Source: Ectothiorhodospira lacustris (GTDB lineage: Bacteria; Pseudomonadota; Gammaproteobacteria; Ectothiorhodospirales; Ectothiorhodospiraceae). From it: a stretch of DNA of 63,708 bases. Location of the stretch: positions 1 to 63,708 of the forward strand of contig NZ_JAJNQN010000023.1 of NCBI RefSeq assembly GCF_022227845.1, given 5' to 3'. The translations under genes were made by a program, and so were the position numbers. Positions 50,827 through 63,708 of this stretch are shown one piece after another (the first letter of the stretch is position 1; each line of letters begins with the position of its first letter). Below the pieces are notes generated by a model that ran no database searches, had not been told where the DNA came from, and saw nothing but the letters and a program-made list of their open reading frames with translations.

Positions 50827-52938
50827 TTACTGACGGAGCCGTCCTAGCAATGCCTCGAAATCGTCCTGGCATAGGGGTTTGGAAAACAGGTAGCCCTGGG
50901 CGTAGTCGCAGCCCTCACGGGCCAGGAATTGCAACTGTGCCTCCCTTTCCACACCCTCAGCAACCACCTGAATGTCTATGGCGTGAGCCATACCGATAAT
51001 GGCCTTCAGTATGCGGTCGGCATCACCATCCTGGCCGGTCTTATTGATCAGTGTCCTGCCCACCTTGATACTACCCACTTGGCAGTCTTGAAGCGCGGCG
51101 ATGGAGAACGGCTCAATGCCAAAATCGTCGATAGCCAAGCGTAGCCGCAAATCTGCCAAACCACAGCTCTCGACCGGATCGATACCGCAGGCGACGAGGT
51201 TGCTCAGGGAAATGGGGGTCAGTTCAATGGTGATCCGGCTGCCCTCGAGATCACTTTCCATCAACCGCGCCCACCATTGTTCCACGAGGGTTGGGGTGAA
51301 AAAGGAGGCGGGTGACTCGTTAATGTGGATCGGAAAGGGCTCGTCCTCCTGGTTGCGCCACCGGAGCGAGCAGGTCACAGCCTGCTTCAGGACATAGCTA
51401 TTGATACTGTCCATCATGCCGTCGGGTTCGGCAATGATGAGAAAGGTGGCCGGAGTGAGTTGCCCCTTGTCCGGATGATTCCATCGGAGCAAGGCCTCCG
51501 CCCTGGATATGGCTCCCGTGCGGATGTCAATGATGGGCTGGTAGTAAACCTCTAGTTGGTCCTCCCTGATGGCATCGCCCAGTTCCCTGTGCAGCCGCAT
51601 GCGCTCTGACTCGTTCGGCTCCATCCAGGACTGATAGATCTGAATCTGGTGGCCCCCCTGCTTCTTGGCGGCGTACATGGCCTGATCGGCATTGTGCATC
51701 AACTGGTCGCCATCCTTGCCATCATCGGGGAACAGGGTCAGGCCGATGCTACCGGAAAGGTGAACTCGTTGGGAATCCACGTCAAACGCCCGTTCAAGAT
51801 CGGCCAGCAGTGCCTTGGCCGCCCTCATGGCACCTTCCCTGCCAGTGTTTTTGAGAATGACGGTGAATTCGTCTCCGCCGAGACGAGCCACGGTATCCAC
51901 GGTCCGGACGTTTTTGGCTAACCGCTTGGCCACCTGCTCCAGCAGGCGGTCGCCGGCCTTATGGCCCAGCCGGTCATTGGCCTCCTTGAAGCGGTCCAGG
52001 TCAATGAACAGCAGCGCAAAGGAGCGATCACCTCGTTCGGCCTCCAGCAAGCACTGCCCGAGCCGATCCTGGAACAGACGCCGATTGGGGATGCCCGTGA
52101 GCGAATCGAAATTAGCGCTTCGCCAGACCTGATGTTCGGCCTTTTTGCGCGCAGTGATGTTCCGTGACATCAGGGCGACGGCTTCCACTTCATCCCGGTC
52201 GTTACACACCGGGATAAATTGTGAGTCAAAGTACAATTCTCGGCCTGACGGCAAATGGCCATGAAAATCCCCGCGCTGGGGCTGACTGGTGGCAACGGTT
52301 GCGGCAATCGCATCGTGTACCTGGGTAGCAAAGGCCAGACCCAACTCAAGCGCAGTTTTGCCAACGTGGTCCTGGGCCGGCGTACCGACCAGATTGGCCA
52401 TCGGCTTGTTAAGGACCAGGAGCTTGCCGTCGGGATCGAATAGGGCGAAGGGGTCGGGGGAGACGTTCAGTACGGCTTCGAACAGGCGTTTGTCCTGGTC
52501 TTTGCGAGCGGAATAGCTCGACACCGAGTTGGCGATCAACTGGTCGATGGCCTCGTTGAAACGCACCAGATCGTAGATGTCCTCGGTGGTGAGGCCCTGC
52601 TGCTCATCGCCCCAGAGCCGGGTTACTCGCTCCCGCAGCGCCCGCAGTTCCAGTATGACCTGTAGGAGGGTCATGCCCTGCTCCAGGCGGCCAAGGCCAT
52701 GTTGCTCACCGGCGAAGGAAACGGGGATTACGGCGTTGCCAAGGGACTTGCGGGTCGACTCTTCCGTGGTCTGGGCCGTCAACAGGTCCTGGATGATGAA
52801 CTGCAGCATCTCCCGGGCATGGTCCCTCAGGGAGATGCTTTCTTCGCCTAAAGATTCCCGGGCGAGTTCCAGCGCGGCCTCTTCCCAGTCTTCAAGCAAC
52901 CGATCCATTTGCGTCTGGAGAAATTGGGCAAGCTTCAT
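50827..52938 (-). CDS. RsbRD-like/PAS/GGDEF/EAL protein
   Basis: A 703-residue cytoplasmic protein. Residues 1-150 resemble an RsbR-type globin-like N-terminal sensor, followed by PAS (about 160-270), GGDEF (about 280-440, intact LGGDEF) and EAL (about 450-700). The EAL part keeps AEALLRW, DDFG, a lysine in SIKVGR, AEGVE and QGYLFSKP, but the usual LEITES is IELTPI and the loop after DDFG is altered (IEPFS, not TGYSS), so phosphodiesterase activity may be weak. The start is ambiguous: ATG at 52938 gives 703 residues, while an in-frame ATG at 53061 would add 41 residues encoded through a pentanucleotide repeat. Confidence 0.82.
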   Translation of the reverse strand: MKLAQFLQTQMDRLLEDWEEAALELARESLGEESISLRDHAREMLQFIIQDLLTAQTTEESTRKSLGNAVIPVSFAGEQHGLGRLEQGMTLLQVILELRALRERVTRLWGDEQQGLTTEDIYDLVRFNEAIDQLIANSVSSYSARKDQDKRLFEAVLNVSPDPFALFDPDGKLLVLNKPMANLVGTPAQDHVGKTALELGLAFATQVHDAIAATVATSQPQRGDFHGHLPSGRELYFDSQFIPVCNDRDEVEAVALMSRNITARKKAEHQVWRSANFDSLTGIPNRRLFQDRLGQCLLEAERGDRSFALLFIDLDRFKEANDRLGHKAGDRLLEQVAKRLAKNVRTVDTVARLGGDEFTVILKNTGREGAMRAAKALLADLERAFDVDSQRVHLSGSIGLTLFPDDGKDGDQLMHNADQAMYAAKKQGGHQIQIYQSWMEPNESERMRLHRELGDAIREDQLEVYYQPIIDIRTGAISRAEALLRWNHPDKGQLTPATFLIIAEPDGMMDSINSYVLKQAVTCSLRWRNQEDEPFPIHINESPASFFTPTLVEQWWARLMESDLEGSRITIELTPISLSNLVACGIDPVESCGLADLRLRLAIDDFGIEPFSIAALQDCQVGSIKVGRTLINKTGQDGDADRILKAIIGMAHAIDIQVVAEGVEREAQLQFLAREGCDYAQGYLFSKPLCQDDFEALLGRLRQ

Positions 52939-53006
52939 GGCCGTTCCCAAGGGATTTGCTGGCGAGTGTTCACGGGATAGCACCTCAGGTGAGGTCTGAT
53001 CTTGTC

Positions 53007-53054
53007 GCCAAGCCAAGCCAAGCCAAGCCAAGCCAAGCCAAGCCAAGCCAAGCC
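53007..53054. repeat. Pentanucleotide tandem repeat (GCCAA)9.6
   Basis: Nine perfect GCCAA units plus GCC. On the minus strand they lie between an ATG (53061-53059, preceded by GGAAG) and the downstream ATG of the GGDEF-EAL gene. In that frame the tract encodes repeats of Leu-Gly-Leu-Ala-Trp. Because the unit is not a multiple of three, each gain or loss shifts the frame from the upstream ATG. Confidence 0.95.
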
Positions 53055-53061
53055 GGATCAT

Positions 53062-53708: not shown

Positions 53709-53787
53709 CCTATGTCCCCGATTCGCCGTCTGCAAAGCCTGCGGCGCTGAGGCGTTGCTACGAACTCATGCCCCACGGGAGTCGGAC

Positions 53788-54240
53788 ATGATTGAGGGTC
53801 TCACTCGAAATGCCGCTCGCAACATCTTCTTCGGCGGGTCGCTGTTCTTCTTCCTGGTCTTCATCGGCCTGACCGCGCATAGCCACTACTACGTCGTCAC
53901 GACATCCACCGACCATGCCGGTCTGACTGATTCGGTCAAGCATGGCAAACATATCTGGGAACAGAATTCCTGCATCAACTGCCATAGTCTGCTCGGTGAG
54001 GGGGCCTACTTTGCGCCCGAACTCGGAAACGTGTGGAAGCGTTACGGTGGCGAACACAGCCCAGCCGGTGCGCGCAATGCACTGAAGATCTGGATGCGGA
54101 TCCAGCCGACCGGCATCGAGGGACGACGACAGATGCCGGGGTACGATTTCACCGAAGAAGAATTGGATGCGTTGATCGACTTCCTGGAATGGACCAGCCG
54201 AATCGATACGCAGGGCTGGCCGCCGAATATTTCCGGTTGA
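53788..54240 (+). CDS. norC: Nitric oxide reductase cytochrome c subunit NorC
   Basis: A 150-residue membrane-anchored c-type cytochrome that feeds electrons to NorB. One N-terminal transmembrane helix (about 12-30), haem motif CINCH with C62, C65 and H66, and axial Met M116 in RRQMPGYDF. The ATG at 53788 follows GGGAG at seven bases. The reading frame remains open for about 120 codons upstream, but that part is not NorC-like. First gene of norCBQD. Confidence 0.95.
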   Translation: MIEGLTRNAARNIFFGGSLFFFLVFIGLTAHSHYYVVTTSTDHAGLTDSVKHGKHIWEQNSCINCHSLLGEGAYFAPELGNVWKRYGGEHSPAGARNALKIWMRIQPTGIEGRRQMPGYDFTEEELDALIDFLEWTSRIDTQGWPPNISG

Positions 54241-54279
54241 GCGCTGACGAGAATCTCACCGCACCCAGGGGGGCAGGAA

Positions 54280-55644
54280 ATGAGGTATCAAACCCAGAAA
54301 GTCGCCTATCCATTCTTTATTGCCGCGCTGGTGCTGTTTGCCGCGCAGGTCATCTTCGGTGTGGTCGCCGGCGCCATCTACGTCTGGCCCAACCTGCTCA
54401 GCGAAGCCATGCCGTTTCACATCGTTCGCATGAGCCACACCAACCTGCTGATCGTGTGGCTGCTGATCGGTTTCTTCGGCGCAACCTATTACCTCCTGCC
54501 GGAAGAGGCGGAAACCGAGATCTATAGCCCGAATCTGGCCTATGTCCAGCTCGGGCTTTTTGTCTTTGCCGGTGCCGCGGCGCTGGTGGGTTACCAGTTC
54601 GGGATCCATGAGGGGCGCGAGTTCCTGGAACAGCCGTTGTGGGTCAAGATCCTGATGACCATCTCGTTTCTGATGTTTCTCTACAACGGCACCATGACGC
54701 TGATCAACGGTCGCAGGACCGCCATTTCGGTGGTGTTGATGATGGGGTTGTGGCTGGCGGCCATCTTCTGGCTGTTCGCGTTCTACAACCCGGCCAACCT
54801 GTCCCTGGACAAGATGTACTGGTGGTACGTGATACACCTGTGGGTCGAGGGCGTGTGGGGCCTGATCATGGCCTCGCTGCTGGCTTATCTCGTGATCAAG
54901 ATGACCGGCGTCGACCGCGAGATCATCGAGAAATGGCTGTATGTCATCGTCGGGCTGGTGCTGTTTTCCGGGCTGCTGGGGACCGGCCACCACTACTACT
55001 GGATCGGCCTGCCGGGCTATTGGCAGCCTGTTGGCAGTTTCTTCTCGGCGCTGGAAGTGTTGCCATTGTTTGCCATGGTGATCTTCGTCTTCTACATGTT
55101 CTGGCGCGGCAGCCGGAACCATCCCAACAAGTCAGCCATCCTGTGGACACTGGGCTGCGCAGTGATGGCGTTCTTCGGCGCCGGCGTCTGGGGTTTCATG
55201 CACACCCTGTCGTTCGTCAACTATTACAGTCACGGCACGCAGATCACCGCGGCCCACGCTCATTTGGCGTTCTTCGGCGCCTACGTGATGCTCAACCTGG
55301 CGATCTTTTCCTACGCCCTGCCGCAGCTTCGCGGCAAGCAGCCGTATAACCAAGTGCTCAACATGTGGAGCTTCTGGCTGATGACCAGCGGCATGGCGTT
55401 CATGACCTTTGTCCTCACCTTCGCCGGCGTGATCCAGACCCACATGCAGCGTGTGGTCGGTCAGCGCTACATGGATGTCCAGGACGACCTGGGCCTGTTC
55501 TATACCATGCGCCTTGGGGCCGGCGTGGTCGTGGCCATCGCGGTGCTGATGTACATCTACGCGATGCTTGGGCCCGCGCGCGAGCAATTGCCCGCCGGTG
55601 CCCCGCACCTGGCTGCCGGGGGTGGCGTCAAAGGCAATCCATGA
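54280..55644 (+). CDS. norB: Nitric oxide reductase catalytic subunit NorB
   Basis: A 454-residue 12-helix haem-copper-oxidase-superfamily protein reducing 2 NO to N2O. Metal ligands are visible: HIVRMSHTNLL, the FeB His and Glu in HLWVEG, the His pair in GTGHHYYW, and haem ligands in AHAHLAFFGAY. A second glutamate normally found four residues after the FeB Glu is Gly here (EGVWG, not EGVWE), while the ALE glutamate nearby is kept. It overlaps norQ by four bases. Confidence 0.95.
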   Translation: MRYQTQKVAYPFFIAALVLFAAQVIFGVVAGAIYVWPNLLSEAMPFHIVRMSHTNLLIVWLLIGFFGATYYLLPEEAETEIYSPNLAYVQLGLFVFAGAAALVGYQFGIHEGREFLEQPLWVKILMTISFLMFLYNGTMTLINGRRTAISVVLMMGLWLAAIFWLFAFYNPANLSLDKMYWWYVIHLWVEGVWGLIMASLLAYLVIKMTGVDREIIEKWLYVIVGLVLFSGLLGTGHHYYWIGLPGYWQPVGSFFSALEVLPLFAMVIFVFYMFWRGSRNHPNKSAILWTLGCAVMAFFGAGVWGFMHTLSFVNYYSHGTQITAAHAHLAFFGAYVMLNLAIFSYALPQLRGKQPYNQVLNMWSFWLMTSGMAFMTFVLTFAGVIQTHMQRVVGQRYMDVQDDLGLFYTMRLGAGVVVAIAVLMYIYAMLGPAREQLPAGAPHLAAGGGVKGNP

Positions 55645-56450
55645 GTACCGAGCTCGCGCAGCCCGCAGCGGATAACGGGATCCCGTTCTACCGTGAAACC
55701 GGCTATGAATGCACACTGTTTGAAAAGGCTTTTGAGCAGTGTCTACCCTTGCTGCTCAAGGGGCCGACCGGCTGCGGCAAGACCCGCTTCGTGGCGCACA
55801 TGGCCGCCCGGCTCGGGCGGCCGCTGTTTACTGTCTCCTGCCATGATGACCTGACCGCCGCCGACCTGACCGGCCGCCACCTGCTGATCGACGGCGAGAC
55901 GCGCTGGGCGGATGGCCCGCTGACCCGGGCGGTGCGCGAAGGCGGCATCTGCTACCTCGACGAGGTGGTGGAGGCGCGCAAGGACGTCACCGTGGTCATG
56001 CATCCGCTCACCGACGACCGCCGCGTGCTGCCGCTGGAGCGCACCGGCGAACTGTTGCAGGCGCCGCCGGAGTTTATGCTGGTGGTCTCCTACAACCCCG
56101 GCTACCAGCACATCCTCAAATCGCTCAAGCCCAGTACACGCCAGCGCTTTATCGCGCTCACCTTCGATTTTCCGCCCCCCGAGATCGAGATCGAGATCGT
56201 CTCGACCGAAAGTGGTTTGTCGAAGGATTTGTGCGCCGGGTTGATCAACCTGGCCCAGCGAATCCGTGCGCTCAAGGGCCAGGACCTGGAAGAAGGTGTA
56301 TCGACGCGCCTGCTGGTCTATTGCGCCACCCTGGTCCAGGCCGGCATGCCCATGGCGCGCGCCGCCCGTCACACCCTGATCGACCCGCTCAGCGACGAAC
56401 CCGATGTCATCGCCGCGCTCGAGGAGCTGGTCGGGCACGCGTTCGGTTGA
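55641..56450 (+). CDS. norQ: MoxR-type AAA+ ATPase NorQ
   Basis: A 269-residue AAA+ ATPase of the CbbQ/NirQ/NorQ family that activates NO reductase together with NorD, probably by inserting FeB. Walker A GPTGCGKTRF (41-50), Walker B with LDEVVEA, sensor VVSYNPGY and an arginine finger region RQRF. Translationally coupled to norB (ATGA) and norD (TTGA). Confidence 0.93.
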   Translation: MSTELAQPAADNGIPFYRETGYECTLFEKAFEQCLPLLLKGPTGCGKTRFVAHMAARLGRPLFTVSCHDDLTAADLTGRHLLIDGETRWADGPLTRAVREGGICYLDEVVEARKDVTVVMHPLTDDRRVLPLERTGELLQAPPEFMLVVSYNPGYQHILKSLKPSTRQRFIALTFDFPPPEIEIEIVSTESGLSKDLCAGLINLAQRIRALKGQDLEEGVSTRLLVYCATLVQAGMPMARAARHTLIDPLSDEPDVIAALEELVGHAFG

Positions 56451-58381
56451 CGGCCTGGTACGAATTCGAGGAGCACGTCGGCCGCTGGTGGCATCACTGG
56501 GCGGCCTCGGCGATCAGCTACCCCGAACACCCTGAAGCCGAAGTCCGTTTCGAAGACTTGCGCGATACGCTCGCGGTCTACTTTCGCGCCATGGGGGGCG
56601 GTCGGTCGCTGGCGTTGGTCACCGCCAGTGCGCAGGATTCCCGGCACCGGTTGACCCTGCGCCAGCGCCTGGGGCTGGAGGCCGAGCCGATGGAACGCGC
56701 TCGCCGCGACGCCGAGAACGTGGTGCTGCCGGCACGCATGGCGTTATTCCCGCAAGCCGCGCTGAACCGCGACGTGTACTTCTGGCTGGCCGCATTCCTG
56801 GCCGAGGTTCGCCAACTGCCGGCGCCCGCCGACCCGCTTCAATGCGACCTGATCGAGATTGCCGAGGCGGCCCGCGCAAGCGATGCACTGTGCGAACGCC
56901 TTCCCGGGCTCGCGGTCCGTTACCGGCGGCTCTGCGCTGTTCTCCTCGACATGCGCCCGGAACGTGCCCTACCGCCCATCGAAGCCGATGTCGAGGCGCT
57001 GATCCGGCACCTGTTGGGTCAATCGGATGCACTGGTATCACCCGGCAGGCTGCTGCGCAGGATTGTTGCGGGTGAAGAACTGGCCAGGTATGGCGCGCCA
57101 AGCGGCTACCGCCCGCCCCTACCGGTGCCCCTGTGGGGGTATGCCTGGACAGACGAGACCACCTCGCCGGCCGCGTCGCAGTCCGATCCCGAGATTGACC
57201 AGGAGGCGGCCAGCGACTCCGATGGCGTCCGGCGCAAGGCCGAGCGGCGCCGCCTGGATCAGACCGAGCGCGATGATCCGCTGATGCTCAACCCCTTCGA
57301 GAAGATGCTGTCGTGGTCCGAGATGGTCAACGTCAATCGGCCGATCGACGATAATCAGGAAGACGACGCGCGTCAGGCCGCCGACCAGCTCGAACGCATC
57401 ACCGTGACCCAACACGAGCGCAAGGCCGCGTCGCGGCTGAAGATGGAGTTGGAGCTTGCCGGCACGGACGTCGACGCGTCACCGCTGAGCGCCCCCAGGA
57501 CCTACCCGGAGTGGCACTACCGAAAGAACCGGTACTTGGAAGAGTACTGCGCCGTCTATGCCCAAATCGCGCCGGAAATGGCCCCCAACGGCGAACCAGG
57601 CGCAGCGCCGGACGCCGAGGCGCGCCGGCGCATCAACCGCGTTCGGCGGCAGTTCGAGGCGCTTAGGCCCAGGCGCGAACTGCAGCACCACCACGTGGAC
57701 GGCGATGAGATCGACCTGGATGCACTCGTCCAGTCGATCGCCGAGCGTGCTGCCGGCGGACACCCCTCGGAAAACGTCTACCTGCGCTGGCGCGACCAAA
57801 CCCGCGACCTGGCCGTGGCCACACTGGTGGATGTGTCGTTATCGACCGATGCCTGGGTGGCGGATCGCCGGGTGCTGGATGTGGAAAAAGAGGCGCTGCT
57901 GGCACTGGCACACGGCGTTCAGGCCTGCGGCGATGATCAGGCGATCTACACGTTCACCTCGCGCCGGCGCCATCGCGTGGACATTCGGCAGATCAAGGGT
58001 TTCGAGGAGCCGGTGACGGCTGCCACGGAGCGCCGCATCGCCGCACTGGAACCGGGCCTTTACACGCGCATGGGCGCGGCGATACGCCACGTGGCCGGAG
58101 AGCTTGGCCGACGCCCGAACCGGCACCGGCTGCTGCTGGTGCTGACCGATGGCAAGCCCAACGACACCGATCACTACGAGGGCCGCTTCGCCGTGGAAGA
58201 CACCCGCATGGCGGTGCGGGAAGCGCGGCGCGAGGGCTTGGCCGTATTCGGCGTGACCATCGATGCCGAGGCCCGCCAGTACTTTCCAGCCATCTTCGAC
58301 CGCTCGGGCTACGCCATCGTGACCCGTCCGGCCGGCCTGGCCAACGCGCTGCCACTTCTGTACCGGCAACTGATTCGTTGA
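56447..58381 (+). CDS. norD: NorD, VWA-domain activator of nitric oxide reductase
   Basis: A 644-residue protein with a helical N-terminal region and a C-terminal von Willebrand A domain (about 445-640) carrying the MIDAS motif DVSLSTD. It acts with NorQ to mature NorCB. The only start that fits its homology is a TTG overlapping the norQ stop (TTGACGGCC), giving MTAWYEFEEHVG. A longer frame upstream is antisense-free but lies inside norQ and is unconserved. Confidence 0.9.
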   Translation: MTAWYEFEEHVGRWWHHWAASAISYPEHPEAEVRFEDLRDTLAVYFRAMGGGRSLALVTASAQDSRHRLTLRQRLGLEAEPMERARRDAENVVLPARMALFPQAALNRDVYFWLAAFLAEVRQLPAPADPLQCDLIEIAEAARASDALCERLPGLAVRYRRLCAVLLDMRPERALPPIEADVEALIRHLLGQSDALVSPGRLLRRIVAGEELARYGAPSGYRPPLPVPLWGYAWTDETTSPAASQSDPEIDQEAASDSDGVRRKAERRRLDQTERDDPLMLNPFEKMLSWSEMVNVNRPIDDNQEDDARQAADQLERITVTQHERKAASRLKMELELAGTDVDASPLSAPRTYPEWHYRKNRYLEEYCAVYAQIAPEMAPNGEPGAAPDAEARRRINRVRRQFEALRPRRELQHHHVDGDEIDLDALVQSIAERAAGGHPSENVYLRWRDQTRDLAVATLVDVSLSTDAWVADRRVLDVEKEALLALAHGVQACGDDQAIYTFTSRRRHRVDIRQIKGFEEPVTAATERRIAALEPGLYTRMGAAIRHVAGELGRRPNRHRLLLVLTDGKPNDTDHYEGRFAVEDTRMAVREARREGLAVFGVTIDAEARQYFPAIFDRSGYAIVTRPAGLANALPLLYRQLIR

Positions 58382-58635: not shown

Positions 58636-58640
58636 GCGAT

Positions 58641-58660
58641 CTACGTATTCCTACGCATTA
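58641..58660 (+). promoter_or_regulatory. Direct repeat, candidate response-regulator site for the bufferin operon
   Basis: CTACGTATT-C-CTACGCATT: two near-identical 9-mers one helical turn apart, 90 bases before bufA. The TACGTA core resembles the TAMGTAG-type element of FixJ-family regulators, and the operon encodes such a regulator. Assignment is inference. Confidence 0.4.
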
Positions 58661-58686
58661 CCCCTTCCGGTCGTGCCCCCTAATCT
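58658..58686 (+). promoter_or_regulatory. Candidate bufferin operon promoter
   Basis: TTACCC (58658-58663) and TAATCT (58681-58686) with a 17-base spacer. The weak -35 overlaps the end of the direct repeat, as expected for an activator-dependent promoter. A start near 58693 would leave a leader of about 58 nt before bufA. Confidence 0.35.
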
Positions 58687-58750
58687 AATCGCAAGCCTGG
58701 ACCAAGACCCAGGCCCCGCGAGCCCTCTTCATTGATTAAGGAGCACGACC

Positions 58751-59068
58751 ATGACCCAGAAGACCACACCATCCCTCTCCACCGCCAGCGTGGCCGGTGC
58801 CTTTGCACTGGCCGTGGCTAGCGCCATGGTTGCGCCAAGCGCGGCGGCGTCGTCGTCCACCATGGAAAAATGCTACGGTGTTTCACCCGCCGGGGAAAAT
58901 GACTGCGCCGCCGGACCCGGCACGTCCTGCTCAGGGACCTCCACCCAAGACTACCAGGGAAACGCCTGGACCTTGGTGCCTGCCGGCACCTGTCAAGACA
59001 TTGAGCTGCCGGGCGACCGACAAGGCAGCCTGGAGCCACTGGACCGGGACCTGCCGAGGCAGTCCTGA
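58751..59068 (+). CDS. bufA1: Bufferin precursor BufA1 (DUF2282)
   Basis: A 105-residue DUF2282 protein. Residues 1-33 are a signal peptide ending in PSAAA; the core follows with C41, C52, C60 and C81 in the conserved contexts KCYG, NDCAAG, TSCSG and GTCQ. In bufferins, the known members of this family, the central cysteines are converted to thiooxazole-type groups that bind copper in the periplasm; the related gig genes respond to gold and copper. A strong AAGGAG site precedes the ATG. The 73-base gap to bufB contains a small hairpin (59100-59117) that might adjust expression of the partner genes. Confidence 0.93.
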
Positions 59069-59141
59069 GATACCGGCCCTGACCCCATCGTGACATCGCT
59101 ACCGCAGGGACGCGGTACTCTGATCCGTCGCAGGAGGTTCC

Positions 59142-60044
59142 ATGTCTGATCTGACGCCCCCCCTGACATTGGCCGGCCCTGATGCCGTCCCCCGATCCGC
59201 CGGTGTAGGGCTCAAGCCAGCCCATTATCGGACGATCCTTGAACAGGGGCCCGACATGGGTTGGTTCGAGATCCACGCCGAGAATTACATGGGCGCCGGA
59301 GGGCCACCCCATCGATATCTGACCGCCATCCGCGAGCGCTATCCCTTGTCCGTTCATGGTGTGGGTCTGTCCATTGGCGGCGCGCGGGCGCTGGACCGCC
59401 GGCATCTCAGCCGCCTGGCCGATCTGGTCCGTCGCTACCGTCCGGGACTGTTTTCAGAACACCTGGCCTGGTCCACTCACTCCAGTGGATTCCTGAACGA
59501 CCTGCTGCCCCTGCCCTACACCGACGAGACCCTGAATCGGGTCTGCCGCCACATTGATCAGGTGCAGGAGGTGCTCGGACAACGCCTGCTGCTGGAGAAT
59601 CCTTCCACCTACGTTCACCTGGCCGACAGCACGATCAGCGAGGTGCAGTTTCTCGACGCCGTGTCGCATCGCACCGGCTGCGGCTTGCTGCTGGATGTGA
59701 ATAATGTCCAGGTGTGCGCCACCAACCATGGGTTTGAGGCCCAGGCGTATCTGGATGCGTTCCCCATGAATCGGGTGACCGAGATCCATGTGGCCGGCCA
59801 CGACCAGCAACAGGACGACGAAGGCCGGCCCCTGCTGATCGACACCCATGACCGCCCGGCTACCGACGGCGTGTGGCAGTTGCTGGAACACACCCTGACC
59901 CTCACCGGTCCCTTGCCCGTGCTGATCGAGTGGGACAACGACATCCCTTCATGGTCGGCCTTGTTCGATGAGTCCCGCAGGGCCCAGCGCCTGCTGGATC
60001 GGCACATCCAGCATCCGGAGGCGGGCCATGCCCTCGCAAGCTGA
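59142..60044 (+). CDS. bufB1: Bufferin-modifying enzyme BufB (DUF692, MbnB-like)
   Basis: A 300-residue DUF692 enzyme of the TIM-barrel multinuclear iron oxidase family that includes methanobactin MbnB. Metal-ligand-type residues are in place: EIHAENY, SVHGVGLS, SEHLAW, LLENPSTY, LDVNNVQV, EIHVAGH and DTHD. It oxidises cysteines of the BufA precursor. A perfect AGGAGG site precedes the ATG. It overlaps bufC by 17 bases, consistent with an obligate BufB-BufC pair. Confidence 0.93.
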   Translation: MSDLTPPLTLAGPDAVPRSAGVGLKPAHYRTILEQGPDMGWFEIHAENYMGAGGPPHRYLTAIRERYPLSVHGVGLSIGGARALDRRHLSRLADLVRRYRPGLFSEHLAWSTHSSGFLNDLLPLPYTDETLNRVCRHIDQVQEVLGQRLLLENPSTYVHLADSTISEVQFLDAVSHRTGCGLLLDVNNVQVCATNHGFEAQAYLDAFPMNRVTEIHVAGHDQQQDDEGRPLLIDTHDRPATDGVWQLLEHTLTLTGPLPVLIEWDNDIPSWSALFDESRRAQRLLDRHIQHPEAGHALAS

Positions 60045-60792
60045 ATACGAGGCCGATTTCGTGCAGGCCCTGCGCCAGCCACGGATACCGCCGCCCGCAG
60101 GTGTGCGCCACCCTGGATCTCAACCGCCGGCGCTGCGCTTTGGCGTCTATCGCAACAATGTCCACGTCAGCCTGGTAGAGGCCGTGACCCGACTCTATCC
60201 CGTGGTGCAGCGTCTGGTGGGAGAAGCATTCTTTCAGGCCGTTGCACGCCGCTTTGTGGGGCAGGTGCTGCCCGACAGCCCGGTGCTGATCGACTACGGG
60301 GAGACGTTTCCCGACTTTCTCGACCACTTTGAACCCGCCGCTCGCCTGCCCTATCTTGGCGATGTGGCCCGCATCGAGTGGGCCTGGCACCGTGCCTATC
60401 ATGCCCAGGACCAAACACCCCTGCCACCGCAGGCCCTGGCCCGAATACCCCCCGCGCAAGTAGGACACCTGCGTCTTGGATTGCATCCATCCCTGCAGGT
60501 ACTGGACTCCCCCTGGCCGGCGCTTTCCATCTGGCATACCAATCGCCACGATGCCCAGGTGAGACGTATCGATCGGGACAGCGGCGGTGAGGCCACCCTT
60601 GTCTGCCGACCCGATATGGAGGTCCTGGTCTGCGCTGTTCCCCTGGGCACGGCGGCCTTGGTACGGACCCTGAGCACGGGGGCCAAGCTGGAACAGGCGA
60701 CCACCCAGGCTGTGGAACAGCCCGGTTTCAATCTGCAAACCAGCCTTGTGGCGCTGCTGAGCAGCGGCGGCATCACTGCGTTTCGATTCTGA
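60028..60792 (+). CDS. bufC1: Bufferin maturation partner BufC (DUF2063)
   Basis: A 254-residue DUF2063 protein. The N-terminal domain contains the conserved FGVYRNNVHVSLVEAVTRLYP, followed by a second alpha/beta domain. In related systems it partners the DUF692 enzyme and helps recognise the precursor. The ATG at 60028 lies inside the end of bufB. The kinase gene follows after 13 bases, so all appear to be one transcript. Confidence 0.9.
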   Translation: MPSQAEYEADFVQALRQPRIPPPAGVRHPGSQPPALRFGVYRNNVHVSLVEAVTRLYPVVQRLVGEAFFQAVARRFVGQVLPDSPVLIDYGETFPDFLDHFEPAARLPYLGDVARIEWAWHRAYHAQDQTPLPPQALARIPPAQVGHLRLGLHPSLQVLDSPWPALSIWHTNRHDAQVRRIDRDSGGEATLVCRPDMEVLVCAVPLGTAALVRTLSTGAKLEQATTQAVEQPGFNLQTSLVALLSSGGITAFRF

Positions 60793-60805
60793 CGGGACCA
60801 GGCCC

Positions 60806-62464
60806 ATGCACATGAATACATTCTCCCCCTCCCTGACCCGACGCTACTGGCGCCGGGTGGTGTCGATCAGCGGCATGGGCCTGTTACTGCGCAGCCTGAT
60901 GCTCATCACCCTCTACTATGCGGTGGGCATGTGGGGGTTTGTCTTCACCCCGGATGCCCACGGTATTCCGCTGGTATGGCCCGCCACGGGCGTGGGACTG
61001 GCCTTCGTGTTTCTCTATGGCTACGGGATGCTGCCCGCCGTGGGCGTTGCCTCCGCCCTGATCACCTGGCAGTTCACTTCAGCAGCGGTTCCCCTGCTCG
61101 AATCGGTCGGGATCGTCGCGGCCACGGTCGCGGGTGTGGCCCTGGGCGGGTACCTGCTGCGGCGCCTGACCATGAGGCCGCGACTGGACCGGTTGCGGGA
61201 TGTGTGGCTGTTGCTGAGCGTTGGCGCCGTGGCGGCATCGGGACTGGCCGCCCTGGCTGGGGCCTGGGGTATGGCCGTTGGCATGGATGACGTGCGGTTC
61301 AGCCAGACCTGGTGGCTGTGCTGGGTGGCAGACCTCATGGGACTGGTGCTGGTGGCCCCGGCCCTGATCACCTGGCTGGGTGCGCCCACGCGCCTGCCGG
61401 GATCAGTGCGGCTCGCGGCCCTGGCGCTGGGCCTCGCCATTACCGGCATCACCACCCTGGTGTACTCCGGCATACTGCCTGCCATGGTGGCGATGCCACT
61501 CTCCTACGCAGTGTTCCCGCTCATCATGCTGGCGGCCGTACGCTGCCCGATTCAGATCACCTCAGGGCTGATCCTGATCACCGGTGCCATTGCCTTGTCG
61601 GGAACCGGCTGGGGTCTGGGTCCTTTCGCTGACATGGGTCTGGGCGAGAGCCTGTTGTCCCTCAATGCCCAGTTGGCCCTGCTGGTCCTGACCGGACTGG
61701 TACTCAATGCCCTGAGCCATGAGCGCGCGGCGGCAGAAGCCCGGGCGCGCCAGTACCTGGAGGATCTCGCCCGCGCCGGACGACTGAGCACGCTGGGCGA
61801 GTTGTCCTCCAGTCTGGCCCATGAACTCAACCAGCCATTGTGTGCCCTCTCCAGCTATGCCCAGGCCTGCAAACGCCTGCTGGCCCGAGGCAAAATGGAA
61901 GACCTTCAGGAGGCGCTGGGTCAACTCGACGCCGGCGCCCATCGGGCCGCCGAAACGGTGCGCCAGATGCGGGCCTTTGCGGCCGGCCAGACCCCCGAGC
62001 AACAACCGGTGTCGCCCCGTGATCTGGTCCACCCGGTCCTTGAACTGCTGCGACCGGAGCTGAATCGACGCCACATCCGACTGGAAGTGGACCTTCCCGA
62101 CACGCTGCCCAGGGTCTCGGTGGTCCCCCTGCAGGTGGAGCAGATCCTGATCAATCTGCTGCGTAATGCCATGGATGCCGTCCACGGCCTGAGACCGGCG
62201 CGCATCGATCTTCAGGTGGCATCCACCCGCGAGGGCGTGACCATGACCGTCACCGACACCGGACCGGGCATTCCGCCGGAGCGGCTGGCACGGCTCTTCG
62301 ATCCCTTTGCCACCTGGAAGGAAGGGGGATTGGGCTTGGGTCTCTCCATCAGCCGATCCCTGGTCGAGGCCCACGGTGGTCGGTTGATCGCGCGCAACCG
62401 GCCCGAAGGCGGGGCCGAATTTCATTTCACTCTCCCCTTGGAGACTCACCATGCCAACCCATAG
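60806..62464 (+). CDS. MASE1-type sensor histidine kinase
   Basis: A 552-residue kinase. Residues 25-305 hold about eight transmembrane helices of a MASE1 sensor domain (GIPLVWPATGVGLAFVFLYG). The HisKA domain has H339 in SSLAHELNQPL, followed by an ATPase domain with NLLRNAMDA, DTGPGIP and GLGLGLSIS. The H-box with LNQPL is the FixL/DctB type. It sits directly between bufC and the response regulator, and overlaps the latter by 14 bases, so the pair is coupled to the bufferin genes. The signal is unknown; metal or redox state is inferred from context. A second ATG six bases in is an alternative start. Confidence 0.9.
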   Translation: MHMNTFSPSLTRRYWRRVVSISGMGLLLRSLMLITLYYAVGMWGFVFTPDAHGIPLVWPATGVGLAFVFLYGYGMLPAVGVASALITWQFTSAAVPLLESVGIVAATVAGVALGGYLLRRLTMRPRLDRLRDVWLLLSVGAVAASGLAALAGAWGMAVGMDDVRFSQTWWLCWVADLMGLVLVAPALITWLGAPTRLPGSVRLAALALGLAITGITTLVYSGILPAMVAMPLSYAVFPLIMLAAVRCPIQITSGLILITGAIALSGTGWGLGPFADMGLGESLLSLNAQLALLVLTGLVLNALSHERAAAEARARQYLEDLARAGRLSTLGELSSSLAHELNQPLCALSSYAQACKRLLARGKMEDLQEALGQLDAGAHRAAETVRQMRAFAAGQTPEQQPVSPRDLVHPVLELLRPELNRRHIRLEVDLPDTLPRVSVVPLQVEQILINLLRNAMDAVHGLRPARIDLQVASTREGVTMTVTDTGPGIPPERLARLFDPFATWKEGGLGLGLSISRSLVEAHGGRLIARNRPEGGAEFHFTLPLETHHANP

Positions 62465-63113
62465 ACCCCATATTCACCTCGTGGATGACGATCCGGATGT
62501 GCGCGCCGGGGTGAGCCTGCTGCTCAAGAGCGAGGACTTTCATGTCCGCGCCTTTGCCGATGCCCAGGCGGTGCTCGACTTCGTGACACCTCAAACGCCC
62601 GGTTGCCTGATCCTGGATGTGCGTCTGCCGGACATGGATGGACTCACCTTGCAGCGCCGGCTCAAGGAACAGGACATCCGCATGCCCATCGTGTTCATCA
62701 CCGGCCATGGGGACATCCCCATGGCGGTGCGGGCGCTGAGTGAGGGAGCACTGGATTTCCTCGAAAAACCCTTCAGCGATCAGGCATTGATCGAAGGGGT
62801 ACGACACGCCCTCGAAAGGGATGCCGAGCAACGCGCGGGTGCCCAGGAGGTGGCGCACCTGCAGGCGCGGCTAGACTCGCTGACCCCTCGGGAACGCGAT
62901 GTACTCGAGGGACTGTTGGATGGCAAGCCCAACAAGCTGATCGCCCGCGACCTGGATGTGAGCGTACGCACCGTGGAGATCCATCGCAGCAATCTCATGC
63001 AGAAGATGGGGGCCAAGGGTGCATCCCACCTGGCTCGGTTGGCCCTGGCCTGCAGCGAATATCAACACCGTCTGCTGCCGACGACCCCCATCGATGAAAA
63101 GTCCCTGTCCTGA
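62451..63113 (+). CDS. FixJ/LuxR-type response regulator
   Basis: A 220-residue regulator: receiver domain with D56 as phosphorylation site (LILDVRLPDMDG), K107 in EKPF, and a C-terminal LuxR-type helix-turn-helix (LTPRERDVLEGLLDGKPNKL, VRTVEIHRSNLMQKMGAK). It is the cognate partner of the upstream kinase. The most likely targets are the bufferin operon itself, through the repeat at 58641, and nearby genes; this is inference. Confidence 0.92.
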   Translation: MPTHRPHIHLVDDDPDVRAGVSLLLKSEDFHVRAFADAQAVLDFVTPQTPGCLILDVRLPDMDGLTLQRRLKEQDIRMPIVFITGHGDIPMAVRALSEGALDFLEKPFSDQALIEGVRHALERDAEQRAGAQEVAHLQARLDSLTPRERDVLEGLLDGKPNKLIARDLDVSVRTVEIHRSNLMQKMGAKGASHLARLALACSEYQHRLLPTTPIDEKSLS

Positions 63114-63160
63114 GCCGAGACGCACCGGCGACGGGTGGCCCCTAGCAGAGGAGAGTGCCT

Positions 63161-63664
63161 ATGAACACGTCCATCCACCATGCGGGCAGATCAACCGGTC
63201 AGACCCTGATGCGGCTGATCGATGCCAGCGCGCGAGGGTTCCAGTATCTGCCCGCCTCGCTGCCGGCCCTGCTGCTGCGGATCGCCGTGGCCATACCCTT
63301 CTGGCGATCCGGGCTCACCAAGTGGGATGGCCTGCAGCTCTCTCCGGGGGCACGCTGGCTGTTCGAACACGAGTTTCAGCTGCACCTGCTGGGCAACACC
63401 TATCCCATGCCCCTACCCGTTCTCAGTGTGTATCTGGCCGCCATGGGTGAAATCCTGCTGCCGATCCTGCTGATCCTGGGGCTGGGCACCCGTTTTGCGG
63501 CCCTGGGGCTGTTATTGATGACCGTGGTCATCCAGCTGACCATTCCCGATGCATGGGCCACGCACCATTTACCCTGGGCCGCCATGCTGCTGGCCATCAT
63601 GACCTGGGGGCCGGGAAGGGCCTCCCTGGATCATGCCCTGGCGCGGTGGTACCGCAGCCCATGA
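63161..63664 (+). CDS. DoxX family membrane protein
   Basis: A 167-residue protein with four transmembrane segments and the DoxX pattern LLLRIAVAIPFWRSGLTKWDG. DoxX proteins are regular members of bufferin/gig operons (GigT in Cupriavidus), possibly handling quinone or metal redox. The ATG follows GAGGAG. Its stop overlaps the next gene start (ATGA). Confidence 0.88.
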   Translation: MNTSIHHAGRSTGQTLMRLIDASARGFQYLPASLPALLLRIAVAIPFWRSGLTKWDGLQLSPGARWLFEHEFQLHLLGNTYPMPLPVLSVYLAAMGEILLPILLILGLGTRFAALGLLLMTVVIQLTIPDAWATHHLPWAAMLLAIMTWGPGRASLDHALARWYRSP

Positions 63665-63708
63665 CAGGCTGGAACCGGCAATGGCTGGTACGCGGGATCC
63701 TGCTGGCG
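63661..63708 (+). CDS. Start of a further operon gene, cut by the window edge
   Basis: A frame beginning MTGWNRQWLVRGILLA overlaps the DoxX stop as ATGA and remains open to the edge. The charged start followed by hydrophobic residues suggests an exported or membrane protein. Only 16 codons are visible; identity unknown. Confidence 0.6.
   Translation, partial: MTGWNRQWLVRGILLA

Follow-up and report, generated by a model that had tools for sequence, protein, structure and literature searches.

The window analyzed here is a stretch of 63,708 bp from Ectothiorhodospira lacustris, which represents one whole contig of a 3.28-Mb draft genome. Close to the contig end at position 63708 it contains six collinear genes on the plus strand, which code for a DUF2282 protein (bufA), an MNIO protein (bufB), a DUF2063 protein (bufC), a MASE1 sensor histidine kinase, a FixJ-type response regulator, and a DoxX-type membrane protein (doxX). 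The bufA gene (58751-59068) codes for a type-1 bufferin precursor of 105 amino acids (DUF2282, PF10048, 86.5 bits) with four cysteines according to direct reading and an N-terminus that, as judged by eye, resembles a signal peptide. It is the sole DUF2282 match in this genome, and the NCBIfam BufA2 model scores 23.6 bits on it, below the cut-off of 60. It is followed by bufB (59142-60044), coding for the MNIO maturase (NCBIfam NF050167 MNIO_BufB, 384.5 bits, cut-off 310), and by bufC (approximately 60028-60792, alternative start at 59968), coding for the DUF2063 partner protein (PF09836, 82.2 bits). The kinase gene (60806-62464; 552 amino acids) combines a MASE1 domain (PF05231, 70.9 bits, cut-off 29.8) with HisKA (PF00512) and HATPase (PF02518) domains, and the regulator (62451-63113; 220 amino acids) consists of a receiver domain (PF00072) and a LuxR-type domain (PF00196). 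The last gene, doxX (63155-63664, with a GTG start at 63155 or an ATG start at 63161), encodes a DoxX/HvfX-family membrane protein (PF07681, 66.9 bits; HvfX model, 62.2 bits, under the cut-off of 80). The DUF2063 partner and the DoxX protein of the Buf1 cluster both score above their Pfam cut-offs. By its gene content the locus is a type-1 bufferin operon, whose product is predicted to receive a thiooxazole modification and to bind copper.

An earlier, sequence-only reading of this DNA had named the same six genes and had placed the kinase and a LuxR-type regulator between bufC and doxX, in the same direction and with overlaps or short gaps. All six genes are present, and the coordinates agree with this arrangement: the kinase ATG follows the bufC stop after 13 nt, the kinase and regulator genes overlap by 14 nt, and the distance from the regulator stop to doxX is 41 nt (GTG start) or 47 nt (ATG start). 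An additional overlapping gene at the contig edge, which was also postulated, is not supported. An ATG overlapping the doxX stop leaves 16 codons before the contig ends, and the equivalent frame shuts after 9, 36, and 9 codons in the genomes G003, G001, and G009, respectively.

Upstream of bufA lies a predicted FixJ-like operator, TACGTATTCCTACGCA (58642-58657, plus strand), made up of two TACGNA half-sites 10 bp apart and followed after 23 nt by the -10-like hexamer TAATCT (58681-58686, plus strand), a combination newly recognized here. The operator consensus, TAVGNA-N4-TACGNA, was found by reading bufA upstream regions, in which TACGNA is repeated at a distance of 10 bp. A plain sigma-70 scan found no promoter at the bufA upstream site. 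The centre of the operator would be located about 43 nt before the expected transcription start of bufA, which fits the position of a class-II activator. The predicted operator resembles the published FixJ sites GTAMGTAG and TAAGTAATTTCCCTTA (PMC4999443), and likewise the published site GTACGTAG (PMC13327599).

The distribution of this element was determined in a family sample of 47 genomes, 10 of them from the genus, in which kinase orthologues were accepted at E <= 1e-70. In the genome of the window, the bufA operator is the only exact match to the pattern TACGNAWNCNTACGNA and also to the sharper pattern TAVGNAWTCNTACGNA. Sites of the same kind lie upstream of bufA in seven further genomes, and the same element precedes the leading gene of oxazolin operons, whether unlinked or neighbouring, which contain doxX, an EGKCG-repeat precursor, MNIO, and DUF2063 genes, in G012, G013, G014, G028, and G037; these are all five kinase-bearing genomes whose sequence at that upstream position was available. 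Across the 47 genomes TACGNAWNCNTACGNA had nine matches (six in buf or oxazolin promoters and three elsewhere) versus 10 for the reversed control, whereas TAVGNAWTCNTACGNA had 11 versus none for its reversed control, a contrast weakened by the fact that the pattern was drawn up with 10 of these 11 exact matches already known. The TAVGNAWTCNTACGNA matches were distributed over 9 of the 18 kinase-bearing genomes and were absent from all 29 genomes without the kinase. The only one not used in writing the pattern belongs to G030 and reads off a contig end. At this locus (L135:79-240) two divergent operators are situated 130 nt apart, both with a -10-like hexamer at +23, and the second, one letter off the pattern, faces czcE. 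The predicted targets behind the sites are bufA, doxX of the oxazolin operons, czcE, zwf, and a Glu_synthase-like gene; upstream of a thioredoxin-like gene the site is weaker. At two loci (L098:14218-17329 and L099:13977-17094) the intergenic region that separates a DcaP-type porin gene from a Glu_synthase-like FMN-domain gene contains an exact operator facing the latter; in G029 and G035 the Glu_synthase-like gene is divergent from bufA.

The distance between operator and hexamer is highly constant. A [TC][AT]NNNT hexamer occurs at exactly +23 in all 17 hand-listed sites, and no other offset between 0 and 39 shows it in more than two of them. The list was drawn up without the sites before the kinase gene of G027, after doxX in G001, and before an MlaE-type gene of G037, which have no -10-like box at +23, and without the near-identical bufA sites of G001/G003 and the Glu_synthase-like site of G001, which were omitted as duplicates. 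The stricter form T[AT]NN[CT]T was present at +23 in 14 of the 17 sites. The background frequency of the hexamer class is 2.6%. For a fuller count, which included all the omitted sites, a 13-site matrix was applied at a score of at least 16 to the DNA around buf, MNIO, and kinase genes of the family. This yielded 21 sites in 402 kb of loci from kinase-bearing genomes, 18 of them with the -10-like box at +23, and none in the MNIO loci (187 kb) of 15 kinase-free genomes; the matrix was built from most of the counted sites and its scores are therefore not independent, but the spacing was not used for choosing sites. Since the genes that follow these sites are not related to one another, the shared unit of operator and -10 box is not merely inherited promoter sequence. 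In the 598 kb around 60 buf regions of a class-wide sample four sites reached a score of 16, one of which, before bufA of G118, had the hexamer; this genome of another family has a kinase homologue with 42% identity, and the -10 box of its bufA operator is weak. Among nine further class-wide regions, the hexamer was found at +23 in G030 (already known), in G405, which has a kinase homologue and whose site faces an alpha/beta-hydrolase-like gene, and in G133, which has a kinase-domain homologue, and not in the other six. A high-scoring operator-like repeat outside the 17 sites also precedes a lone bufA in G307 (L216:4945-4960); it has no -10-like box at +23, and no kinase match was obtained in this genome at E 1e-55.

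Within the family sample a kinase orthologue was detected in 18 of the 47 genomes, DUF2282 in eight, and any MNIO gene in 31. All eight DUF2282-bearing genomes also have the kinase (p = 1.4e-4 if genomes are independent, a value that overstates the significance because the genomes are related). In the genus sample the five genomes with DUF2282 are exactly the five with the kinase, the other five being devoid of both. The kinase/regulator pair is found inside the buf operon in all five, at two different positions, namely between bufC and doxX in G000, G001, G003, and G009, and after doxX in G005. Conservation of this gene order in the close relatives G001, G003, and G009, with a variant in G005, shows that the arrangement is more than chance. 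The family also includes more distant Thioalkalivibrio-type genomes, and in all three of these that contain DUF2282 (the draft genomes G029, G035, and G036) the buf operon is without the pair, which is located on a different contig and in G029 and G035 adjoins a gene read by us as glnS. Identities to the window are alike in these three genomes for bufB (66-68%) and the kinase (65-67%). The pair is convergent with an oxazolin-type cluster in 3 of the 13 kinase-bearing Thioalkalivibrio-type genomes, several of the other flanks being short; this cluster shows DUF2063 and MNIO genes in G014 and G027 and only DUF2063 before the contig end in G031. A lack of conservation in relatives, which the sequence-only reading had named as a refutation, is not what was found: the pairing recurs in every DUF2282-bearing genome of the genus, but tight linkage is limited to this one genus within the family. 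The role proposed there for the pair as controller of the buf genes is supported by the operator shared among the buf promoters of kinase-bearing genomes.

The class sample comprised 369 genomes, of which 365 do not belong to the family. DUF2282 was found in it at 119 places in 97 genomes, and 60 buf neighbourhoods from 57 genomes were examined. A tight pair of a kinase and a FixJ-type regulator, divergent from bufA, was found in G106 (another family) as the sole such case among these regions, and matches to a kinase or a regulator that were weaker or more remote occurred in L185, L200, L207, L226, and L237. Full-length kinase homologues outside the family (E <= 1e-55) were obtained from five genomes, G118, G200, G247, G310, and G405. 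Small genes that by eye are of the DoxX type are divergent from the distant homologues of G200 and G310 (L176:11246-11695 and L177:8309-8758).

The closest solved structure to the regulator is that of FixJ (5xso; E 2e-53), whose recognition helix is similar. Since the NCBIfam equivalog model of FixJ just missed its cut-off (251 versus 255 bits), the regulator is not called FixJ itself. In the kinase a Pfam scan found no PAS match, and MASE1 takes the place of the heme-PAS sensor domain of FixL. Residue C172 of the MASE1 domain is a cysteine in all 24 aligned kinases of this kind (18 from the family, the five outside homologues, and that of G106), which were grouped by alignment and similarity and not as a tested clade. 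In the best-scoring 29 other MASE1 domains of the class sample the same position is occupied by tryptophan (26), glycine (1), asparagine (1), or cysteine (1). The G106 kinase contains this signature cysteine and is MASE1-like by alignment only, as Pfam calls no MASE1 domain in it. All 18 family orthologues share C172, M230, and C247; outside the family C247 is present only in G405 and M230 in none. A role of C172, together with C247 and M230, in copper or thiol sensing is proposed. To our knowledge, the ligands of MASE1 domains are mostly unknown, and C172 is put forward as a signal-related residue for this domain.

The best reading of these data is a two-component activator that governs, by autoregulation, the bufferin operon to which it belongs, along with a small copper/thiol regulon. 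We consider activation of the surrounding bufferin operon by the pair likely, and with more modest confidence favour copper as the signal, thiol or redox stress being the main alternative. The MASE1 membrane domain would sense a signal in the periplasm or the membrane, excess copper or the resulting thiol stress being the most likely, perhaps through C172, with C247 and M230 contributing in the kinases of the Ectothiorhodospiraceae. The kinase would then phosphorylate the regulator, which in this form would bind the operator, adjacent to where a -35 box is lacking, and recruit RNA polymerase in a class-II geometry. The operon would thereby yield bufferin, which may chelate copper in the periplasm, and additional sensor and regulator, resulting in positive feedback. 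For the gig operon, induction by periplasmic Cu(I) was concluded by its authors (PMC10304878). More tentatively, and on balance slightly doubtfully, MASE1 kinases with a membrane cysteine (WWxCWxAD) could represent a new class of copper/thiol sensors that, via FixJ-type regulators, govern the peptide metallophores Buf1 and oxazolin in several families of the Gammaproteobacteria and have moved into or beside their operons repeatedly.

Besides the limits of the pattern counts and of the p-value given above, several observations weigh against this interpretation. None of the five full-length kinase homologues outside the family is located beside buf genes, and in G030, whose genome is 99% complete, the kinase is present and no MNIO gene was found. 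In the 13 kinase-bearing Thioalkalivibrio-type genomes a sulphur-globule-type gene lies by the pair in nine and a glnS-like gene in six. Of the predicted targets zwf, the Glu_synthase-like gene, and the thioredoxin-like gene are not copper-specific. Three of the 21 strong sites in loci of kinase-bearing genomes lack the -10-like box at +23, namely the abovementioned sites of G027, G001, and G037, that of G001 lying within an inverted repeat that perhaps forms a hairpin. In G247, which has both a kinase homologue and a buf operon, only a weak site was detected (score 12.4, with 99.5% of background windows below 12.2). A search for a wider regulon in four genomes with two mismatches allowed gave only noise, with fewer matches than the control, and class-wide the loosened pattern matched 52 of the 369 genomes, mostly without the kinase, so that this search had no useful specificity; moreover, 3 of 29 class-wide pattern sites in kinase-free genomes also had a -10-like box at +23. 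Finally, the AlphaFold model of the kinase was too poor for a test of a metal site (mean predicted local distance difference test score 54.7, mostly below 50 in the MASE1 part) and was not used. The sulphur globule protein gene at L082:11240-11551, which adjoins the pair, matched the Pfam family SGP with 58 bits and was the only such locus tested with Pfam.

That the pair regulates the operon in response to thiol, sulfur, or oxidative stress, with bufferin as one part of a redox response, is possible though rather unlikely. The sites facing the Glu_synthase-like gene, zwf, and, more weakly, the thioredoxin-like gene would fit such a response, as would the frequent sulphur-globule-type neighbours and the protection from oxidative or sulphur stress that a DoxX homologue confers elsewhere (PMC12452194). 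However, the commonest predicted targets are the two copper-peptide operon types, joined by CzcE in G030, and the non-copper targets each occur in only one or two genomes. The operator might instead serve another regulator of the FixJ family, the embedded pair being a passenger merely co-transcribed with buf. The numerous other kinase-domain matches, 9 to at least 30 per genome among the matches listed, leave room for this idea, which is nevertheless improbable given that exact operator matches are confined to kinase-bearing genomes, contrasts within the genus included, and that the pair repeatedly lies beside captophorin genes. Least probable is control of buf by an extracytoplasmic function (ECF) sigma factor encoded elsewhere, with an incidental operator-like repeat. 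ECF sigma and NrsF genes are part of described Buf1 clusters (PMC12452194) and sigma-F acts in the heavy-metal response of Caulobacter (PMC3511200), but the eight scanned proteins of the region gave no Sigma70_r2 match, the single Sigma70_r4_2 match (29.1 bits) corresponds to the LuxR-type helix-turn-helix of the regulator, which GerE fits better (72.8 bits), and the operator plus -10 unit is common to unrelated genes.

Elsewhere in the window, norC-, norB-, norQ-, and norD-like genes (cytochrome c, COX1-like, CbbQ/NorQ AAA, and VWA proteins) lie directly upstream of the buf genes (53764-58381). A link between them and buf was rejected, as no match was found upstream of buf in G001 or G003. 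Further upstream, 9.6 perfect copies of the 5-nt repeat GCCAA (53007-53054) mark the beginning of a PAS-GGDEF-EAL gene (50827-53061, minus strand), which is a candidate phase-variable cyclic di-GMP gene, as a change in repeat number would alter its reading frame or the spacing upstream of it.

Little is known about the induction of bufferins and related copper peptides. The locus suggests one way and supplies a named candidate sensor, regulator, operator, and promoter geometry that are open to reporter assays. CopRS and CusRS have OmpR-type regulators and a periplasmic sensor loop; the system proposed here shares with them the presumed sensing in the envelope and the activation of a periplasmic copper defence, but differs by its FixJ-type regulator and multi-helix MASE1 domain. 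With FixL-FixJ it has in common the type of regulator, the similar recognition helix, and an operator resembling TAMGTA boxes, whereas the kinase carries MASE1 and no PAS match, and the apparent targets are copper-peptide operons instead of fixK and nifA. The four core genes, their order, and the four-cysteine precursor are as in Buf1 bufferin and gig operons. Those described carry ECF sigma and NrsF genes, in agreement with the contrast drawn by the sequence-only reading, whereas here a kinase/regulator pair is embedded and an apparent operator precedes bufA. In the main text of the paper naming these sigma factors, the terms two-component, histidine kinase, and MASE1 do not occur (PMC12452194). 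For gig, which has rpoQ-rsqA beside it, periplasmic control was inferred and the ECF sigma factor encoded next to it has no proven role (PMC10304878). In the accessible literature on bufferin, DUF692, DUF2282, or MNIO with two-component systems, and on MASE1 with copper, no such system was found described. The account of the captophorins, which comprise bufferins, oxazolin, and fontiphorin, mentions co-occurring transcriptional regulators, the term two-component being absent from its main text (PMC13097082). Within this group the apparent regulon would span two branches, Buf1 and the EGKCG-type oxazolin, which suggests that two different families of copper peptides may share one regulon.

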